This document shows, piece by piece, positions 2,689-26,985 of a DNA stretch of 32,990 nucleotides; position 1 is the stretch's first letter; each line of letters begins with the position of its first letter. A program made the translations under genes and the position numbers. The notes below the pieces were generated by a model, which saw only the letters and a list, made by a program, of their open reading frames with translations, ran no database searches and was not told the origin of the DNA. Source of the stretch: Deltaproteobacteria bacterium (lineage in GTDB: Bacteria > Desulfobacterota > GWC2-55-46 > UBA9637). The stretch is from assembly GCA_016214995.1 (NCBI GenBank), contig JACRML010000008.1, forward strand, positions 1 to 32,990. Direction: 5' to 3'.

Positions 2689-3204
2689 ATGGCAAACAAA
2701 AAAAACCACAGCAGGTTTACAAAGATTAAACGTTGGATTAAACTTCATTACTATAAAATAGTCCGCATTGACGACCCGCCTTATAAAATCGCCAGAGGCG
2801 TTGCCATAGGCGTATTCATGGGCATATTCCCGACCCCCTTTATCGGGCCTTTACTGGCAATTCTCGGTGCATACATTCTCAAGGCGAATAAAGCAGCCTC
2901 AGTCCTTGGAAGCTTAATCATGAACCCTCTTACAACACCATTGTTCTGGATGCTGTCTGCAGCGGTAGGCGCAGCTATCATGCAAAGCGACAGAGAAATC
3001 GTCATGCAAAGCATAAAGAATCATCAACTATTAAATGGCGTGAGTTGGGCGATTCTGGTATATATGGTCGGTAATATCATTGTTTCGACGGTATTTACCG
3101 TAGCGTCGTACTTCATTACGAAAAGATGGATAATCATACATAGAAGGCATAAAGCCATGAAGATGCTGGCAAAGAGGGACAGTCTTATAGGAAAGGGATT
3201 GTAA
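2689..3204 (+). CDS. DUF2062 domain membrane protein
   Basis: A 171-aa protein with the DUF2062 signature: a short basic N-terminus, then SPxxIAxGxAxGxFxGxxPTPFxG-like sequence (here DPPYKIARGVAIGVFMGIFPTP), two hydrophobic hairpins and the MNPLTTPLFW motif. Four membrane segments are likely (about residues 35-65, 75-105, 118-140). The function is not established; members are often found next to glycosyltransferase or envelope genes. The ATG lies 2 bp after the thiD stop with a weak AGGAAA ribosome-binding site inside thiD, so the pair is probably one transcript. Confidence 0.85.
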   Translation: MANKKNHSRFTKIKRWIKLHYYKIVRIDDPPYKIARGVAIGVFMGIFPTPFIGPLLAILGAYILKANKAASVLGSLIMNPLTTPLFWMLSAAVGAAIMQSDREIVMQSIKNHQLLNGVSWAILVYMVGNIIVSTVFTVASYFITKRWIIIHRRHKAMKMLAKRDSLIGKGL

Positions 3205-3287
3205 GGCGTTCTCATCGCCCTATATGATTTTGATAAGTGTGGAATAAGTGTAAAAAAGAATGTTAGGTTGCAAAACAAGGATTACAT

Positions 3288-3611
3288 ATGGAGCAGAAAC
3301 ACTCAAGAATTGGAATCGCCTCGTTCGTGATAAGTATTATATCTGGACCCCTCTTTTTCTTGACGCTGTTCATCGCGATAATAATGGAAGGATTTAGGCC
3401 TACAGCAATGGACCATGACCCTTTAATAGAAACAGTGCTTGTACCACTTATATTAGTTTTACTACTTGCAAACTTCGTAGCCTTGGGGCTTGGTATTGGA
3501 GGTCTTTTTAAGAAAAGCCGGAAGAAGATTTTCGCAATTCTCGGAACGGTATTCTCTTCGGTGCCTGTGGTGGGAATGATATTAAACGCAATCATTCACA
3601 ACTTAGAATAA
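3288..3611 (+). CDS. small multi-spanning membrane protein carried by the cassette
   Basis: A 107-aa protein with three hydrophobic segments (about residues 7-31, 46-70 and 81-103) separated by short charged loops, including a KKSRKKIFAILG stretch. This arrangement (HSRxGIASFVIS..., then GLGIGGLFKKxRKKxFAILG) resembles DUF4190-like small inner-membrane proteins of unknown function. It starts at the first ATG of the candidate cassette, with only a weak AAGGA ribosome-binding site. It is the sole gene between the cassette boundaries. A defence role cannot be read from the sequence. Confidence 0.7.
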   Translation: MEQKHSRIGIASFVISIISGPLFFLTLFIAIIMEGFRPTAMDHDPLIETVLVPLILVLLLANFVALGLGIGGLFKKSRKKIFAILGTVFSSVPVVGMILNAIIHNLE

Positions 3612-3633
3612 ACATGGACAGCGACCAATGAAC

Positions 3634-3657
3634 TACCCCGCAGCAAGCTGCGGGGTA
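3634..3657 (+). repeat. REP-like perfect hairpin
   Basis: TACCCCGCAG and CTGCGGGGTA form a perfect 10-bp stem around a CAAG loop, 22 bp after the membrane-protein stop. No T-run follows, so it looks more like a REP palindrome than a classical terminator. A related but degenerate copy (CGAAG, CAAG, CTTCG, then GGGG) lies at 3709-3725. Confidence 0.7.
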
Positions 3658-3708
3658 TCTGAAAACACCTCACAGAAGCTACAATTGTTGTTGATACAAA
3701 AAAAATTA

Positions 3709-3725
3709 CGAAGCAAGCTTCGGGG
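3709..3725 (+). repeat. second, degenerate REP-like hairpin
   Basis: A 5-bp stem CGAAG/CTTCG around the same CAAG loop as the hairpin at 3634, followed by GGG. The left arm has lost its matching C run. The shared loop and flanks suggest the two hairpins belong to one repeat family. Confidence 0.5.
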
Positions 3726-3753
3726 AATTAGACCCGAAGTGATTAAAAAGGAA

Positions 3754-3813
3754 GCCTAACAATTCACTCCAGCGGACGGGCAATAGCCCGCCAGTGCATT
3801 TCTGACGTTGGGG
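3754..3813 (+). other. attC-like recombination site (60 bp)
   Basis: R'' box GCCTAAC at 3754-3760 and R' box GTTGGGG at 3807-3813 enclose an imperfect hairpin. CCAGCGGACGGGC on the left faces GCCCGCC on the right around an AATA loop. The pairing is CGGGC:GCCCG, then an unpaired A, then GG:CC. The single extrahelical A in the left arm and the 60-bp length are typical of integron attC sites. The right arm beyond GCCCGCC pairs poorly, so the site may be partly decayed. Confidence 0.68.
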
Positions 3814-3849
3814 ATGCAGAAAAAATATTTCTGAAAACCATTATCCCCA
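3809..3849 (+). repeat. nested stem-loop beside the attC-like site
   Basis: TGGGGAT (3809-3815) pairs with ATCCCCA (3843-3849), and inside it CAGAAA (3817-3822) pairs with TTTCTG (3828-3833). The structure starts within the R' box of the attC-like site. It could be a terminator-like or structural element, but no T-run follows. The rest of the gap 3612-3915 is accounted for by the two REP-like hairpins, the attC-like site, and the livK ribosome-binding region. Confidence 0.45.
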
Positions 3850-3915
3850 GCAGAAAGGCAACAGAAATTTGAAAGGAGTATTTATGAAAGCAAGAAATAA
3901 CAGGAGGCATGAAGC

Positions 3916-5052
3916 ATGGAAAAAATCAAGATTGCGTTTTTGTTATTTATTGTCCACTTTTCACTGTTCACTGTTTTTACAGGCTGTGCCAAAAAGGAAG
4001 ATACCGTAAAAATCGGCGTTGCAGGCCCAATGACAGGGGATCAGGCAAAGATGGGAACTGATTTGAAAAATGGCGTTGAGCTTGCAGTAAGTGAATGGAA
4101 CGAAAAGGGTGGAGCGCTTGGGAAAAAGATTGAACTCTTTATTGAAGACGACCAGCATGACCCAAAGCTTGCAGTAACAGTCGCCAATAAACTTTCTAAC
4201 TCAGGCGTTGCAGGTGTCATTGGGCACTGGAACAGCTCTGCATCCATCCCTGCATCAGAGGTTTATAAAGACAGAAGCAATATCCCCATGATAACCCCTG
4301 CGTCAACAAACCCGCGGTTGACAGAGAGAGGTTTTGAAAATGTATTCAGGGTTTGCGGCAGGGACGACCAGCAAGGGAAGATTGCGGCGGAGTTTGTTGC
4401 AAAGTCGCTCAAGGTAAAAAAGGTCGCCATTATCCACGATAAGACAACATACGGCCAGGGACTTGCAGATGAATTTAAAAAGGCTCTGGGAAATGCGGCA
4501 GAGGTTGTTTACTACGGAGTTGTGATTCAGGGGGATAAAGATTTCAGGGCAGTTTTGACAAGCATCAAGGATAAAAAACCTGATATCATCTATTTCGGCG
4601 GCATATATCCGGAGGCAGGACTGCTGGTAAAACAGGCAAAGGAGCTTGGCATAAAGGCGCCGTTTATGAGCGGCGATGGAACCATTGACAAGGAGTTTAT
4701 AAAAATTGCAGGCAAAGAAAATGCAGAAGGCACATATCTGACATTCAGCCCCGACCCTTTAAATATTCCAACAGCAAAGGCATTTCTTGATAAATACCAT
4801 GCAAAATATGGAGAGCACGGGCCGTATTCCATCTATGCCTATGATGCGGCAAATATCCTTTTAACAGGCATTAGCGAGGCTGGTATAACCGATGGAAAAA
4901 AGATTGCCGATGCAATTCACAATCTGGCTTACGATGGCGCGCTCGGCAAAGTCCAGTTTGACAAAAAAGGAGATGTGCTGAAAGCTCCGTATATTGTCTG
5001 GGTTACGAAAGATGGAGAGTTTAAGGAGTATTGGAAACCAGAAAGAGAATAG
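3916..5052 (+). CDS. livK: branched-chain amino acid ABC transporter, substrate-binding lipoprotein
   Basis: A 378-aa type I periplasmic binding protein of the LIV family (Peripla_BP_6). It has a lipoprotein signal peptide ending in FTGC (Cys24), then VKIGVAGPMTGDQAKMGTDLKNGVELAV, the standard LivJ/LivK opening. GVIGHWNSSASIPASEVY and PMITPASTNPRLTERG form the ligand-site region, and VAIIHDKTTYGQGLADEFKK is also conserved. The true ligand (Leu/Ile/Val or another amino acid) cannot be told. The ATG at 3916 has AGGAGG 8 nt upstream. Part of the signal peptide (VHFSLFTV, residues 13-20) is encoded by a heptad array at 3954-3974, a striking case of a repeat serving as hydrophobic core. livH follows after an 81-bp repeat-filled gap. 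Confidence 0.92.
   Translation: MEKIKIAFLLFIVHFSLFTVFTGCAKKEDTVKIGVAGPMTGDQAKMGTDLKNGVELAVSEWNEKGGALGKKIELFIEDDQHDPKLAVTVANKLSNSGVAGVIGHWNSSASIPASEVYKDRSNIPMITPASTNPRLTERGFENVFRVCGRDDQQGKIAAEFVAKSLKVKKVAIIHDKTTYGQGLADEFKKALGNAAEVVYYGVVIQGDKDFRAVLTSIKDKKPDIIYFGGIYPEAGLLVKQAKELGIKAPFMSGDGTIDKEFIKIAGKENAEGTYLTFSPDPLNIPTAKAFLDKYHAKYGEHGPYSIYAYDAANILLTGISEAGITDGKKIADAIHNLAYDGALGKVQFDKKGDVLKAPYIVWVTKDGEFKEYWKPERE
3954..3974 (+). repeat. heptad repeat array inside the livK signal peptide
   Basis: Three 7-bp units in register: CCACTTT, then TCACTGT twice. They encode part of the hydrophobic core of the livK lipoprotein signal sequence. The 7-bp period matches the arrays elsewhere in this window. Confidence 0.75.
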
Positions 5053-6219: not shown

Positions 6220-6279
6220 ATGGCAAATTAAAAACAAATCAAGTAGGGTGGGCCTATGCCCACAAAAAACTCCTTACGT

Positions 6280-6675
6280 ATGAGAAAAGAGACCAAAAAC
6301 TGGCTTAAAATGGCAGAGTATGACAGTACTACAGCAGACCACATGCTGGCGAGCGGACGTTATGTATATGTTGTTTTTATGTGCCATCTTTCCATAAAAA
6401 AGATGCTAAAGGCTATAGCTTCAGAAGAGACGGGAAAGACACCACCAAAGACACACAATCTCTTGTACCTTTTAAAACTTAGCAAAATAACTCCTCCTCA
6501 ATCATTGCATGATTTTATCTCTATTATTAACAATGCGAGCATTCCTACGCGATATCCGGAAGATTTTGATAAACTTATTGAGGTGTATCCAAAAGAGATT
6601 GCTCATGGCTATCTTGATAAAACGCAGGAGGTATTACAATGGCTAAAACAGGACCATCGGTTAAAAGAATCATAA
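6280..6675 (+). CDS. HEPN domain protein of a HEPN/MNT pair
   Basis: A protein of about 131 aa with the all-helical HEPN layout (MRKETKNWLKMAEYDSTTADHMLAS..., then HLSIKKMLKAI, KTHNLLYLLKLS, a variant of the typical HNLxxLL helix, and RYPEDFDKLIEVY). The frame opens at 6256, but that ATG lies in a GTGGGC/GCCCAC palindrome. Codon 9 (6280) gives the usual family start, so I choose it. HEPN proteins paired with minimal nucleotidyltransferases act as toxin-antitoxin modules in which the transferase modifies the HEPN RNase. I do not find the RX4-6H catalytic motif of HEPN RNases here, so it may belong to the non-RNase, nucleotidyltransferase-substrate-binding branch. Its 3' end overlaps the MNT gene by 37 bp. 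Confidence 0.8.
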   Translation: MRKETKNWLKMAEYDSTTADHMLASGRYVYVVFMCHLSIKKMLKAIASEETGKTPPKTHNLLYLLKLSKITPPQSLHDFISIINNASIPTRYPEDFDKLIEVYPKEIAHGYLDKTQEVLQWLKQDHRLKES

Positions 6676-6968
6676 GCCAGTATGCTCAGGAATTAAAGAA
6701 AATGGGCATCATGCCTGCAAGGATAATCCTCTACGGTTCTTATGCCACAGGACATCCGCGAAAAGAGAGTGACATTGACCTTGTTATAGTTTCTGAAAAT
6801 TTTAAAGATAAAAATTTGAGGGAGCGGTTGGAGCTGCTTGGCCTGGCTGCCGGCAGGGTCTTTGAACCTATTGAGGCGCTAGGATATACCGAAGGCGAAA
6901 TTACTTCTCAAGAAAAAGGAGGTTTTCTGGATGAGATAATAGCAAAAGGGGTAGTGGTTGCTCTTTGA
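6639..6968 (+). CDS. minimal nucleotidyltransferase (MNT) partner of the HEPN gene
   Basis: A 109-aa MNT-type protein with the polymerase-beta fold signature GSYATGHPRKESDIDLVIVS (GSx10DxD), which supplies the metal-binding aspartates. In HEPN/MNT modules this protein adds nucleotides (typically AMP) to the HEPN partner and neutralises it. The start overlaps the HEPN gene; ATG 6639 is preceded by GGAGGT at a good distance, so translation is independent or re-initiated. The final TGA overlaps a further ATG (6968), where a 36-codon frame starts. Confidence 0.85.
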   Translation: MAKTGPSVKRIISQYAQELKKMGIMPARIILYGSYATGHPRKESDIDLVIVSENFKDKNLRERLELLGLAAGRVFEPIEALGYTEGEITSQEKGGFLDEIIAKGVVVAL

Positions 6969-7078
6969 TGATTTTGCCTGAAAAAGATGTTGAGGTGTGT
7001 TTTGATATTCAGACCCACGAGGTTGCTTGGGGAGAAGATGTAATAACAGAGGTAATAAATGCCAAAGAAAATGCATAA
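6968..7078 (+). CDS. short 36-aa ORF between MNT and methyltransferase
   Basis: An ATG overlapping the MNT stop (TGATG) opens a 36-codon frame (MILPEKDVEVCFDIQTHEVA...) that ends inside the next gene. It is acidic and has no recognisable domain. The overlap geometry at both ends is what a real small gene in a tight operon would show. Equally, it may be a remnant or chance frame. No homology is known to me. Confidence 0.3.
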   Translation: MILPEKDVEVCFDIQTHEVAWGEDVITEVINAKENA

Positions 7079-8006
7079 TAAGAGTATGTTAAAAACTGTT
7101 ATGAAACAAAAAAAGGCCGCAATGTATAAACTCCCAGAAAACCCTCTTGAATTTTATATTTCTGAGGAAGCGGCTGCCTATGGCCGCAAGCCACCCTTCA
7201 CTATTCACTATGACAATCCAGAACAATCTGTAAAACTGCTCAAAGGTGACTGCATAGAAATTTTAAATCAGGCTAGAGAAAATAGCGTTGATATGATATT
7301 CGCCGATCCTCCGTATTTTCTCTCGAATGGAGGTATTACTTGTCATGCTGGAAAGATGGTTTCGGTAAACAAGGGAAAGTGGGATAAATCGAAGGGTGTA
7401 GAGAAAAATCATAAATTTACCCTTGAATGGCTTAAAGCATGCCAGCGTGTCTTAAAGCCGAACGGCACTATTTGGGTGTCTGGAACAACTCATATAATTT
7501 ACTCTATTGGCTTTGCCATGCAGGAGCTTGGATACAAGATTCTCAATGATATTATTTGGTATAAACGCAACGCTCCTCCAAATCTTTCTTGCAGATATTT
7601 TACCCATTCAACAGAGATTGTCCTATGGGCTGCAAAAAATCAAAAGAGCAAACATTACTTTGATTACCAATTGATGAGAAAGATGAATCAAGGAAAGCAG
7701 ATGCGGAATGTTTGGGAAATATCAGCACCATTGTCAGAAGAAAAAAGATTTGGTAAACACCCAACACAGAAACCTACCGAGCTTTTAAGCAGAATAATTC
7801 TTGCATCTACGAAAGAAGGTGATTTGGTTTTGGATCCATTTTGTGGAAGCTCAACAACAGGTGTGGTGGCAATTTTGCGCAATAGAAAATATGTTGGCAT
7901 TGATTTGGAGGAAGAGTATTTAAAGCTTTCTGTAAAAAGGATAGAAGAAGCCATAGCAAAGAAAGAAACAAAATTATTTGTTGATGAAAAGGTTTCTGGT
8001 TTATGA
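7059..8006 (+). CDS. site-specific DNA methyltransferase (beta class, N6-adenine likely)
   Basis: A 315-aa AdoMet-dependent amino-methyltransferase. Catalytic motif IV is DPPYFLSNGG (residues 83-92), followed by a target-recognition stretch (KMVSVNKGKWDKSKG). The AdoMet-binding motif DPFCGSSTTG comes late (259-268), after HPTQKPTELLSRII. This order (IV before X/I) defines the beta class. DPPY favours N6-adenine; N4-cytosine enzymes usually have SPP. The VSVNKGxWD block resembles HindIII/DpnA-type enzymes, but the target sequence cannot be read off. A GAGGT ribosome-binding site precedes ATG 7059. The stop overlaps the next start (ATGA, 8003-8006), so the 450-aa protein is its operon partner. 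Confidence 0.9.
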   Translation: MPKKMHNKSMLKTVMKQKKAAMYKLPENPLEFYISEEAAAYGRKPPFTIHYDNPEQSVKLLKGDCIEILNQARENSVDMIFADPPYFLSNGGITCHAGKMVSVNKGKWDKSKGVEKNHKFTLEWLKACQRVLKPNGTIWVSGTTHIIYSIGFAMQELGYKILNDIIWYKRNAPPNLSCRYFTHSTEIVLWAAKNQKSKHYFDYQLMRKMNQGKQMRNVWEISAPLSEEKRFGKHPTQKPTELLSRIILASTKEGDLVLDPFCGSSTTGVVAILRNRKYVGIDLEEEYLKLSVKRIEEAIAKKETKLFVDEKVSGL

Positions 8007-9355
8007 ATACATTTAACTCTTTTTTTAAGACATTGTTGGGCAATGCAAATATTTCACTATCACGAGATTTATCTATTGATGAAATCAAATTTATTATCTC
8101 TAAAATTAACGAATACTTTTATACAAACTATGAAGGTATTGGTCATACAAATATTTTGGATGACGATTTTGAGTATTTTTCTGAGTTTCATAAGTTTTGG
8201 GAGAAGTATCATAAAGATGTGCTAAACCCTACAATAGATGACGCTCACTGTTTGCTAGCGGCAAATGTGTTGCATGATGTGTTCATTAAACATGGCAGGC
8301 CGCCTTTCTATGAGTTATATAATACTTACTCATTAACACTTGAGGAGATTTGTAAGATAAGATATTTTTCTGCCAATCAAGATTTTAGAGGCTCAAGAGG
8401 TTTTGAAGATTTATTTAAAAGGTATAAAGATGACCCAAGTATTTTTGATAAAGATAATATCAATCAAAATCCAGAAGATTTCTTGAAAAACATAGGAATA
8501 ACAAGCCTTTCACAAAACGACAAGCGAGTTAAATATGCGATCACAGCCTCCCAACTTTTAATTGACAACGGAATAGAACCTTATGAACTCTTGTCATTTT
8601 GTCAGAATGATGTTGGAAAGGTAAGAAATCTTTTAATAAGCAATCGTGGTTCAGGGTTTGGAAATAAAAAAACAGATATGTTTTTAAGGGATATGGTTGT
8701 TTTAGGAGTTTGGAAAAAGCCAAGAAACTTTGATAAAATTGATGTCGCAAGCGATGTAAATACAGTCAAAGTTGCATTAAGAACCAGAATATTAAAAACA
8801 GATATTGTTTTAATTAGTAGCTTCTTAGATATTTTTTGTTATCAATACAGTTTGATTGATGAGATGAATGCGAAAGCATGGCGAAGAGTTTGGGAAATTT
8901 GGAAACAACAACATCCAGAAGAATGTATTGAAAGTCCTTGCTTAATAGATTATTTCGTCTATAGAGTGATAGGAAAAGACTTTTGTAAAGAGTCACTATG
9001 TATCTTTCAGTGTAAATCAGAAGACCACACTTTCAAATGGCATTCGGGAAGAAATAAGACTTGTCAGGTATGTTTTAAGAATAAAAAAGTAAGAAATAGG
9101 GCTTATGTGACTGGCAAGGTATTGCCATGCACAGATAGAGATGGTTATATAGTAATTGAAAAATCTGTTTTTGTTTCTGGTGATAATCCATTATTACTAG
9201 ATCTAAAAGAATGCCCTTTTGAAGTTGTGTGCAAACCCAAAACTGATATTTTTAAAAAATTAAATCCCCCAAAATCTATAAGTATACTTGGCCAAACTGG
9301 CTGGGAAAGCGCAAAAACAAGAATTGAGGAAGGTGGCGGTGGGTTAATGTCGTGA
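8003..9355 (+). CDS. unknown 450-aa partner of the methyltransferase; HhH-GPD-like and Cys-rich
   Basis: I do not recognise a named family. The N-terminal 160 residues are helical and charged. Residues 165-265 look like a helix-hairpin-helix base-excision domain: GSGFGNKKTDMFLRDMV (216-232) resembles the glycine-rich hairpin of HhH-GPD glycosylases, and IDVASDVNTVKVALR (246-260) sits where those enzymes have the catalytic Asp (here Asp251). A cysteine cluster follows (Cys308, 313, 328, 333, 337, 354, 357), which could bind zinc or an iron-sulfur cluster. The gene overlaps the methyltransferase by 4 bp, has no other restriction candidate nearby, and is AT-rich. It is therefore the presumed restriction or effector subunit. 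A glycosylase-type nuclease is an inference, and a conventional REase with an unusual fold remains possible. Confidence 0.6.
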   Translation: MNTFNSFFKTLLGNANISLSRDLSIDEIKFIISKINEYFYTNYEGIGHTNILDDDFEYFSEFHKFWEKYHKDVLNPTIDDAHCLLAANVLHDVFIKHGRPPFYELYNTYSLTLEEICKIRYFSANQDFRGSRGFEDLFKRYKDDPSIFDKDNINQNPEDFLKNIGITSLSQNDKRVKYAITASQLLIDNGIEPYELLSFCQNDVGKVRNLLISNRGSGFGNKKTDMFLRDMVVLGVWKKPRNFDKIDVASDVNTVKVALRTRILKTDIVLISSFLDIFCYQYSLIDEMNAKAWRRVWEIWKQQHPEECIESPCLIDYFVYRVIGKDFCKESLCIFQCKSEDHTFKWHSGRNKTCQVCFKNKKVRNRAYVTGKVLPCTDRDGYIVIEKSVFVSGDNPLLLDLKECPFEVVCKPKTDIFKKLNPPKSISILGQTGWESAKTRIEEGGGGLMS

Positions 9356-24420: not shown

Positions 24421-24500
24421 GGATTTTAAGCTTACAACAACCTTTTTCCTGTATTTGACCTAAAATCAACAAAAATGATGCTGCGACATAAAATATAATG

Positions 24501-25200
24501 TTGCATCTAAAAGAGCATACAACTCAAGGGATCAACCATGAAGTCAAAATATTATCCCCCAAAACTTAACGAAACCAAGTTCCACTGTGCCCACTGCAAT
24601 ATATTTTCCCAGCAAATCTGGCAGCCAGTGTTCATCAATACTGGCGGATGGACGGAATCTCAGTTAAAGTCGTGCATATGCACACATTGTGGCCAGCGCA
24701 CTTACTGGCTTGGCCAACGAATGGTGGTTCCCGACGACGCCCCCGTTGAACCAGCGCATCCAGAACTTCCTGCAGATCTTCTAAAGGAATATGCAGAGGC
24801 AAGATCGATCTTCACTCGCTCACCAAGAGCCTCAGCCGCACTTCTGCGCCTCTGCCTTCAGAAACTCATGCCTCACCTGGGAGAGGTTGGCAAGAACCTC
24901 AATGACGACATCAAGTCCCTAGTCAAGAAAGGATTACCACCGCTAATACAGAAGTCCTTGGATTTCTGCATGGTGATTGGAAATAACGCCGTCCACCCCG
25001 GAGAAATTGATCTTAACGACACTCCAGACACAGCTCTCCAACTTTTCGGGATGATCAATATTATCGTCGAAGATCGAATTGCAAAACCAAAGGAAATCGA
25101 GGCTCTTTACTCAACCCTACCAGAGGATGCGAGAAAGGCCATAGATGAACGGGACAAGACTAAATAGCAACGCCAGCTAAGCTTCCGCTTAGCGCAGCCG
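24501..25200 (+). mobile_element. possible integron cassette with the DUF4145 gene (weaker case)
   Basis: A G^TT site at 24500 (GTTGCAT) opens this 700-bp unit, and a hairpin with R''-like TAGCAAC (25165-25171) and R'-like GTTATGA (25200-25206) closes it. The left boundary and the complement of R'' share GTTGC, then diverge, so the circle-closure match is only 5 bp. The boxes do not fit RYYYAAC well and the site (about 42 bp) is shorter than normal attC. It is supported mainly by its position directly before the stronger cassette. TATAAT at 24494-24499 abuts the boundary. Confidence 0.4.
24538..25167 (+). CDS. DUF4145 domain protein with N-terminal zinc ribbon
   Basis: A 209-aa protein. Residues 17-51 hold two CxxC pairs (Cys17/20, Cys48/51), a zinc ribbon. 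Residues 80-185 form the helical DUF4145 domain (SPRASAALLRLCLQKLM..., then FCMVIGNNAVHPGEIDL). DUF4145 is a HEPN-related domain often found with restriction or defence genes. Here the Arg usually ahead of the GNxxxH segment is replaced (CMVIGNNAVH), so RNase activity by the HEPN mechanism is doubtful. Codon use is richer in C-ending codons than its neighbours, suggesting transfer. The stop codon lies at the edge of the attC-like hairpin. It lacks a strong ribosome-binding site. Confidence 0.8.
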   Translation: MKSKYYPPKLNETKFHCAHCNIFSQQIWQPVFINTGGWTESQLKSCICTHCGQRTYWLGQRMVVPDDAPVEPAHPELPADLLKEYAEARSIFTRSPRASAALLRLCLQKLMPHLGEVGKNLNDDIKSLVKKGLPPLIQKSLDFCMVIGNNAVHPGEIDLNDTPDTALQLFGMINIIVEDRIAKPKEIEALYSTLPEDARKAIDERDKTK

Positions 25201-25206
25201 TTATGA
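25165..25206 (+). other. attC-like hairpin after the DUF4145 gene
   Basis: GCTAAGC and GCTTAGC pair perfectly around TTCC. Outside an internal loop, AAC pairs with GTT and GC with GC, leaving one C extrahelical. The outer AAC/GTT geometry and the cut position G^TT at 25200 match an attC, but the site is short. It defines the left edge of the restriction-modification cassette. Confidence 0.5.
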
Positions 25207-25251
25207 ATAAAATAGATAAAATCAAAAAAAGCTGTAATAGAGAGGTAAGAA

Positions 25252-25884
25252 ATGGCTGGTAAACTAACAGAAATATTCACCGATAAAAACCTTGTAGAGA
25301 AAATTAAGAAACGATTGCCCTATTTATTCCAACTTGCTGAATTAGAAAGTTCTCGGGCTGGCAAAACAGGAATGGAAGTCGGCTCGGTTCGTGAAAGGAT
25401 AATCGTGGCTCTGCTTATCTATAAGTTCGGAGAGGCCAATATTGAAACTGAAATACCAATTACCAAATCTGAAGTTGACGCAAAACTATTTGGTGAACCA
25501 GTATCCGTTAAGACTATTACAGGTAAAAGTTTAGGCGGCGTGAAACTGATATGGACGGTTGATGCACAAAAAGCAATAGAATTCAGAGAGAATTATTATC
25601 CCTCTTGTGATATTTTGCTTGTCCAGATTAACTGGGGCGACACTGGTGGATTCTTTTATATTCCTGTAGAGCTACAGAAAAAACTGTTTGACAAGATGGG
25701 CAGAGAAAACTATATTAAATTACCAAAGGCCGGAACGAATCCTCGCGGCGCTGAAATTGCAAAAGAATCGCTATCAAATCTTGTTGCAGATAAACAATGC
25801 CAACGTATTATTATAGAATGGCAAAAGACCAAAATAGATTTTAATCCATACAAGAAATGGGTTGACTTCTGGGAGGAAGACTAA
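25252..25884 (+). CDS. type II restriction endonuclease, ThaI-like
   Basis: A 210-aa protein resembling the ThaI family (ThaI cuts CGCG). TDKNLVEKIKKRLPYLFQLAELESSRAGKTGMEVGSVRERIIVALL is the N-terminal signature I recognise. A PD-(D/E)xK-type core is plausible: SEVDAKLFGEPVSVKTITG offers an Asp and a VSVK strand, and ILLVQINWG follows. The start has an AGAGGT ribosome-binding site. The stop is 1 bp before the methyltransferase ATG, so the two genes are co-translated. The recognition sequence is inferred from family memory only and should be treated as tentative. Confidence 0.8.
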   Translation: MAGKLTEIFTDKNLVEKIKKRLPYLFQLAELESSRAGKTGMEVGSVRERIIVALLIYKFGEANIETEIPITKSEVDAKLFGEPVSVKTITGKSLGGVKLIWTVDAQKAIEFRENYYPSCDILLVQINWGDTGGFFYIPVELQKKLFDKMGRENYIKLPKAGTNPRGAEIAKESLSNLVADKQCQRIIIEWQKTKIDFNPYKKWVDFWEED

Positions 25885-25885
25885 A

Positions 25886-26932
25886 ATGGCTCCATATCAA
25901 AAGAAGATAGGCACTAAAACGAGCGCCTTCGGGTCGCCCGGCAGAATAAATCATGATTCGTCCTCTTTTTACAAAAGCAGATTATATGAGGGATTGCCGA
26001 AAGAAGAAACGATAAAATACGAAGAAAACCCTATTCCGCTTCAATTTTTGGATAAAATTTTTACTTCATCCAGTGAGCGTATGATGGAATTACCTGATAA
26101 TAGTGTTCATCTGATGGTGACATCACCGCCTTATAATGTTGGGAAGGAATATGACGGGAATCTTTCACTCAAGGAATACAGGGCATTTCTTAAACATATC
26201 TGGAGTGAGGTTAAGAGAGTTATTGTGCCCGGTGGTCGTGTCTGTATCAATATTGCTAATTTAGGCCGCAGGCCATATATTCCGCTACATACTTATATTA
26301 TAGAAGATATGCTTGATTTGGGCTTCCTGATGAGGGGTGAAGTTATCTGGAATAAAGCATCGAGTGGTAGTCCTTCCACGGCATGGGGGAGTTGGCTGTC
26401 TGCCAAAAATCCGATTCTTAGAGATATTCACGAATATATTCTGGTTTTCTCTAAAGGGCTATTTTCCAGAGAAAACACCAATGGCAAAAAAAGCACTATT
26501 TCTAAAGAAGAATTTTTAGAATTTACTAAAAGCGTCTGGACATTTTCTGCCGAGTCTGCCCGAAAGGTCGGTCATCCTGCACCTTTTCCTGTTGAGTTGC
26601 CACTTCGGGTGATCAAACTATACACCTTTGAAGGTGATGTAGTGTTGGACCCGTTTATGGGAAGCGGCCAGACCGCTCTGGCAGCCATTAAGGCAAGCCG
26701 TCATTATGTCGGTTATGATATCTCAAAAGAATATGTAACCCTTGCCGAAAAAAGGATAAAGGGATATTTGCAGGAACAAATTACTTTATTCTCTGAACCA
26801 ACAGATGCTAAATCTCTGGTAATCGCTGAAAGACCAAGAGGGAAGGGATATCAGGTCAAAAGTAAACATAGAAATAGGCAAAGAATCAAAAGTAATGATA
26901 GAAATATAAAAAATAAATTCATAACAAAATAA
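25886..26932 (+). CDS. N4-cytosine DNA methyltransferase of the ThaI-like system
   Basis: A 348-aa beta-class methyltransferase. TSPPYN (residues 79-84) is the catalytic motif typical of N4-cytosine enzymes, and DPFMGSGQT (255-263) is the AdoMet motif, coming second. HPAPFPVELPLRVIKLYT links them. N4 methylation of cytosine suits a CG-containing target such as CGCG. The frame opens at a TTG (25862), but the ATG at 25886 with GGGAGGAAG upstream is the start. The C-terminal 25 residues are Lys/Arg/Asn-rich and run into the attC-like site, so the last codons (FITK) are part of the recombination site. Confidence 0.88.
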   Translation: MAPYQKKIGTKTSAFGSPGRINHDSSSFYKSRLYEGLPKEETIKYEENPIPLQFLDKIFTSSSERMMELPDNSVHLMVTSPPYNVGKEYDGNLSLKEYRAFLKHIWSEVKRVIVPGGRVCINIANLGRRPYIPLHTYIIEDMLDLGFLMRGEVIWNKASSGSPSTAWGSWLSAKNPILRDIHEYILVFSKGLFSRENTNGKKSTISKEEFLEFTKSVWTFSAESARKVGHPAPFPVELPLRVIKLYTFEGDVVLDPFMGSGQTALAAIKASRHYVGYDISKEYVTLAEKRIKGYLQEQITLFSEPTDAKSLVIAERPRGKGYQVKSKHRNRQRIKSNDRNIKNKFITK

Positions 26933-26985
26933 TCCAGCGGACGGCAAAAGACACCGCCGCTGATTTTTAGCTGGCCGCGTTCTCT
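26919..26985 (+). other. attC-like recombination site after the methyltransferase
   Basis: TCATAAC (R''-like) starts the site and GTTCTCT (R'-like, 26979-26985) ends it, 67 bp in all. Between them CAGCGG pairs with CCGCTG and CGG with CCG, leaving a single extrahelical A in the left arm. The left arm TAAC...CCAGCGGACGG matches the site at 3757-3779 in 19 of 23 positions with no gap. The final GTTCTCT is presumably original chromosomal sequence next to the mtnA stop. Confidence 0.65.

Follow-up and report, generated by a model that had tools for sequence, protein, structure and literature searches.

A lone integron cassette at an orphan attI-like site in a deltaproteobacterial genome, probably loaded by an integrase acting in trans

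Breakpoints at G|TT are the product of an integron integrase, and in the usual integron a single attI adjoins one intI gene and an array of gene cassettes. Single attC sites lacking an integron-integrase have been described as SALINs (PMC12690207; the terms are also used in PMC9024848), and cassettes of this type can be moved by an integrase acting in trans (PMC9668308, PMC12444791). Pseudogenes of intI and loss of intI are already known as well (PMC2426708, PMC3607928). Sites called attG, in the accounts of Loot et al. 2024 given in PMC12690207, PMC12901181, and PMC12444791, are divergent from classical att sites. In Delta-attI-type cassettes of class 1 and 2 integrons, attI fragments lie away from intI, and the Delta-attI feature can be used by IntI1 in assays (PMC12901181). 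In the open-access papers searched, we found no description of a genome with many orphan attI sites. Single-attC cassettes and intI loss are already known, and the presence of numerous orphan attI-like sites in one genome appears to be new here.

The window analyzed (the whole stretch of DNA, 32,990 nucleotides) corresponds to C95, one of the 99 contigs of a metagenome-assembled genome (G000) of 1.98 Mb that is 83% complete. Its named relatives are groundwater assemblies of Deltaproteobacteria, for example GWC2_42_11, GWF2_42_12, and NC_groundwater_1932_Pr3. The genes, cassettes, and att sites of the two cassette loci described below lie on the plus strand. Positions 3263 to 3807 are one integron gene cassette, with G|TT at both ends, running from the TT of the left edge to the G of the right edge; a first-pass annotation made from the sequence alone had proposed exactly these coordinates. 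The left edge is at 3262/3263, and the sequence GTTAGGT (3262 to 3268) pairs with the R'' box GCCTAAC (3754 to 3760) of the cassette's own attC at six of seven positions, as had been claimed, or at all seven when G-T pairs are counted. Such a left edge, of the form G|TTRRRY and complementary to its own R'', fits a circularized cassette. The annotation was also right to place the unit between a DUF2062 gene (2689 to 3204; Pfam PF09835, 7.2e-30), which is syntenic in relatives, and a livK-like periplasmic binding protein gene (3916 to 5052; Pfam PF13458, 2.9e-63), and to note that one open reading frame (ORF) starts 25 bp inside the cassette. This ORF (3288 to 3611) encodes 107 amino acids, and three hydrophobic stretches, recognized by eye, suggest that the product is a small membrane protein. 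It belongs to no Pfam family above the curated cut-off, a search of 72,556 plasmid records gave no match, and it has no relative in the phylum outside its own genome (395 genomes, 394 besides its own). The reading of this ORF as an ordinary syntenic gene, conserved beside the DUF2062 gene across the phylum at a place with no attC match, was rejected, as the ORF is present in 1 of the 395 genomes and the locus in three relatives lacks the insert. A look at this site in relatives had been proposed as a check, and in G001, G005, and G006 the locus is a short intergenic region that holds no insert. On these comparisons, the ORF behaves like cassette cargo.

Between the ORF and the attC lies a 123-bp MITE-like repeat with two hairpins (3627 to 3749), with perfect 11-bp hairpin arms at 3634 to 3657. 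Nine more near-full-length copies are present in the same genome (on contigs C81, C54, C87, C82, C65, C41, C63, and C80), and their 98 to 100% identity indicates that the element was recently active. IS200-like Y1 transposases, a family with 12 matches in this genome, could be its movers. The repeat itself was considered as the source of the attC and rejected, since it ends at 3749, before the R'' box at 3754.

The attC is a 60-bp site (3754 to 3813) with the R'' box GCCTAAC, the R' box GTTGGGG, and one extrahelical A. Because an Rfam search of the window gave no match, we built our own attC covariance model (R1) from 21 attCs of relatives and plasmids, with the window left out. When the window and the whole genome are searched, as the first-pass annotation had proposed, this model recovers the site at 33.5 bits, with E values of 1.1e-5 and 6.3e-4, respectively. 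The description of the site as a consensus attC holds for its length, its R'' and R' boxes, and the extrahelical A but not for the L' half, which is mispaired with L'' through several broken pairs. The site can still be folded into a hairpin, imperfect in its L' half, at -9.8 kcal/mol, where intact attCs, folded in the same way, reach -14.6 to -17.7 kcal/mol. In its left half the site agrees with attCs of relatives (GCCTAACAAxxCACTCCAGCGGACGGGC), and the partner of its right half, CCAGTGCATTTCTGACG, is the left half of the attC found at the same slot in G003. Joined to that G003 half, the right half forms a near-perfect stem of -20.2 kcal/mol, and the core GGACGGGCARTAGCCCGCC is common to both attCs. 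By the fold test the site is a hybrid, composed of the left half of one attC and the right half of another, a feature that had been missed; the hybrid site is probably weak.

The left boundary of the cassette also holds more than had been noticed, as it is an attI-like site of a kind that recurs in the genome and its relatives. We searched with an attI model (R2) built from 11 attI-like sites, leaving the window locus and its orthologues out of training. The match at 3219 to 3267 (21.7 bits, E value of 4.3e-4 per genome) is among the weaker ones and ends at the cassette edge. The site as a whole (3205 to 3264) ends at G3262|TT, and its last 17 bp (AAAAAAGAATGTTAGG and neighboring bases) are identical to the attI on contig C87 of the same genome. 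The sequence TATATGAT is 42 bp upstream of G|TT, which is also the spacing between TATAATCT, the -10 box, and G|TT in the C87 attI. At the position of an attI cassette promoter there is a weak promoter-like pair, TTGTAA-18-TATGAT (3199 to 3228), which agrees with the consensus at 9 of 12 positions, not above the shuffled expectation. The left flank therefore has what marks an attI, namely, likeness to attI sites adjacent to intI and an end at the recombination point. No intI or intI remnant was found in the window, and the locus is not a complete integron, in which intI adjoins attI. This flank is single copy and was found only in G000, G003, G008, and G010, always downstream of the DUF2062 gene; in the window, the stop codon of this gene lies 58 bp before G|TT. 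To the right of the cassette, positions 3808 to 3870 are the 3' end of a brnT-like toxin gene, with 83 to 86% DNA identity to the 3' part of ORFs of the same type in G002 (C148) and G010 (C67); the BrnT-like name was given by eye. Intact relatives of this gene read TAT GTT GAG GAT at the cassette junction, so G|TTGA is native to it.

Between these flanks, each of three species (that of the window, G003, and G010) has a different cassette, which the first-pass annotation did not detect. G003, which belongs to the same genus, and G010, from another family, are identical at 345 of 365 positions from brnA to G|TT and diverge completely after that point; past G|TT they carry an HNH-type gene and an unrelated lipoprotein-like gene. 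From |TT onward their right flanks match the window again, at 59 of 62 and 100 of 108 positions, respectively (93 to 95%). In G008, contig C36 ends (position 1) exactly at the GTT of the same orphan attI flank (GAATGTT), which may reflect mixed cassettes in the population or only a repeat. Ordinary homologous recombination does not explain breakpoints that lie exactly at G|TT, and the presence of different cassettes between near-identical flanks without intI in G003 and G010 suggests that exchange continued after the local loss of intI. Cassettes thus appear to have been exchanged at a slot that has no intI.

How does this locus compare with the described systems? Like a SALIN, it holds an attC-bearing cassette without a nearby intI, on which an integrase could act in trans, and its attC is the only one locally, the next being 23 kb away with its own attI-like site. 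A SALIN, however, is defined by attC alone, whereas here an upstream attI-like site is kept and the slot is common to several species with different cassettes. The first-pass annotation, which described the situation as that of a SALIN lacking an integrase, was correct in cis, as no intI is adjacent, but the genome does have intI genes, both of them on other contigs (C87 and C3). Chromosomal integrons with a decayed intI, such as those at the Xanthomonas ilvD locus (PMC12444791) and in Treponema phagedenis (PMC3607928), as well as those with intI pseudogenes (PMC2426708), are similar in that intI is lost or broken and the cassettes stay at a fixed position. The present genome differs from them in having several dispersed units of one or two cassettes, not one array, and intact intI genes at its other loci. 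As far as attG insertions (Loot et al. 2024) are described in the accounts cited above, they share with the window locus a cassette joined to the chromosome at G|TT outside a complete integron; the left flank here, unlike the recipients described there, is similar to a resident integron's attI. An attG recipient is neither attI nor attC, and here only the right flank is ordinary gene sequence. The attI fragment of Delta-attI-type cassettes (PMC12901181) replaces the cassette attC inside an array, whereas the window attI is a chromosomal site of its own upstream of the cassette.

Integron integrases were identified with TIGR02249 at its curated cut-off. The two in the window's own genome, on C87 and C3, belong to what are by inspection complete integrons, with a long open intI, an attI with promoter-like sequence, and cassettes. 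Near 37263 to 37325 of C3, the cassettes of the integron include a methyltransferase and a probable restriction gene, and a 133-bp attC-like site is present. The integrases of G000 (C87 and C3), G003 (C44), and G005 (C10) have open frames of 427 to 482 residues, compared to the 315 positions of the model, and the N-terminal extension of about 110 to 170 residues is the portion that survives in intI remnants. At the attI-like sites of G001 C51 and G000 C90, the 5' part and the last 3' bases of intI are kept and the middle is gone. Both remnants were shown by blastn and missed by tblastn with trimmed integrases, because they consist mainly of the N-terminal extension. In G007 (C73) an internal deletion has left integrase residues 1 to 35 and 186 to 216, and in G003 (C5), at the same birA locus as G001 C51, the attI alone remains. 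These four loci can be read as a series of intI loss. The fragments indicate that at least those attI-like loci are integrons that lost their intI; since the window locus has no such remnant, the same origin is proposed there by analogy.

Across 11 genomes belonging to the order, model R2 gave 63 matches with an E value of <1e-3; of two genomes outside the order, one gave a single weak match and the other none. Nine integrases above the cut-off were found, in five of the 11 genomes, so that they are outnumbered by the attI-like sites. Of 52 attI-like matches outside the training contigs, 15 are followed on the same strand by an attC no more than 4 kb away, a count that uses the complete attC list (a hand-picked tail of weak attC matches gave 21 of 52). 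Density alone would predict 0.5 such pairs (P of about 1e-8), and the three wrong arrangements together gave one. In the window's own genome, attI-like sites on C18, C90, C99, and C95 (two sites) are followed by an attC and lack an adjacent integrase; 4 of its 11 attCs have no recognized attI in a scan that covered this one attI type (type A). Several attI-like sites at conserved positions hold different cassettes in different species. In G001, G006, G007, and G010, attI-like and attC sites are numerous, and no integrase exceeds the cut-off. For G001, estimated to be 100% complete, the numbers are 20 attC matches (E values up to 0.0075) and 11 attI-like sites. Such sites can therefore persist without an integrase, and they may be fossils.

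The second attI-like site of the window (24449 to 24502; R2, 32.9 bits, E value of 1.3e-7 per genome) lies downstream of proA, on a platform between proA and mtnA. Its first cassette contains a PD-T7-4-like defense gene (24538 to 25167; PADLOC PD-T7-4, 2.8e-89), followed by the restriction-modification (RM) cassette that the first-pass annotation had mentioned to the right. This is indeed a cassette (25200 to 26973; PADLOC REase_II, 2.4e-88, and MTase_II, 1.3e-134), with the left edge G|TTATGA and its own attC (26923 to 26981; R1, 34.4 bits, E value of 6.7e-6). In G006 (C78), a different locus holds a unit that is 93% identical and shares this left edge, and the proA-mtnA locus of G003 holds an attI-attC unit with other genes. 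A short attC-like stem can be seen around 25165 to 25200, between the PD-T7-4-like gene and the RM cassette. Elsewhere in the window, at 6256 to 9355, after a HEPN/MNT-like small gene pair (assigned by eye) come a type II methyltransferase and a 450-amino-acid protein without a family, and neither the attC nor the attI model matches this region.

Taken together, we consider it likely (probability of about 0.7) that the cassette is docked at an orphan attI, the site of an integron without its intI, and was loaded by an integrase acting in trans. Downstream of the DUF2062 gene there would once have been an integron whose intI was lost, leaving behind the attI, the right junction in the toxin gene remnant, and the cassette slot. 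An integron integrase encoded elsewhere would insert and swap cassettes at G|TT; the most likely donor in the window's own genome would be the C87 integrase, because its attI is the closest match to the window attI. Two cassettes probably collapsed by recombination between similar attC cores: a deletion between the cores of two neighboring attCs would have removed the downstream cassette and left a hybrid attC. This hybrid, probably weak attC may have trapped the present cassette and may explain why the cassette is alone. A MITE also inserted inside the cassette. The locus may still recombine at present, and it may be transcribed.

A different reading is that the locus is the fossil of a decayed integron, with its last cassette stranded and inherited passively and with an attI and attC that no longer recombine. 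The hybrid, poorly paired attC, the MITE within the cassette, the decay seen in the intI remnants, and the four genomes that retain such sites with no integrase above the cut-off all agree with this, and we give it a little less than even odds. It does not account for the different cassettes between near-identical flanks in G003 and G010, which point to exchange after intI was lost locally, and the contig end at GTT in G008 would fit variation within a population. An integrase could instead have put the cassette into a chance G|TT of the brnT-like gene, in an attG-type event that involved no attI. Although the right flank is a fragment of that toxin gene, in which G|TTGA is native, the left flank does not resemble the 5' part of a brnT-like gene but matches the attI of the resident integron, and the site was reused in several species, so that we regard such an event as unlikely.

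Homologous recombination may have moved whole platforms between lineages, in which case no integrase would be necessary for the cassette differences. G000 and G008 are in fact 96% identical from 3187 to GTT but only about 70% identical in the DUF2062 gene, which indicates that this segment was exchanged between families. The identity between orthologous loci, however, stops exactly at G|TT and resumes in the right flank at |TTGA, and as an explanation of the cassettes themselves homologous recombination seems improbable. That the whole arrangement results from binning or assembly would be conceivable for a metagenome-assembled genome of 99 contigs and 83% completeness, but the same gene order surrounds the insert in independently assembled relatives, and we attach hardly any weight to it.

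Loading of the orphan attI in trans, our preferred reading, leads to a broader and tentative proposal, which we consider somewhat doubtful as it stands. Bacteria of this order may have a distributed integron, in which several chromosomal attI docking sites without an integrase, each with one or two exchangeable cassettes, are kept in place of a single long array, and one or two integrases, resident or visiting, act on them in trans. A scan that looks only for attC or intI would overlook the attI part of these loci. Anti-phage genes are present on at least one of the window's platforms. If service in trans is true, it would be a different organization of cassette capture, and the fate of integrons after the loss of intI would become directly testable.
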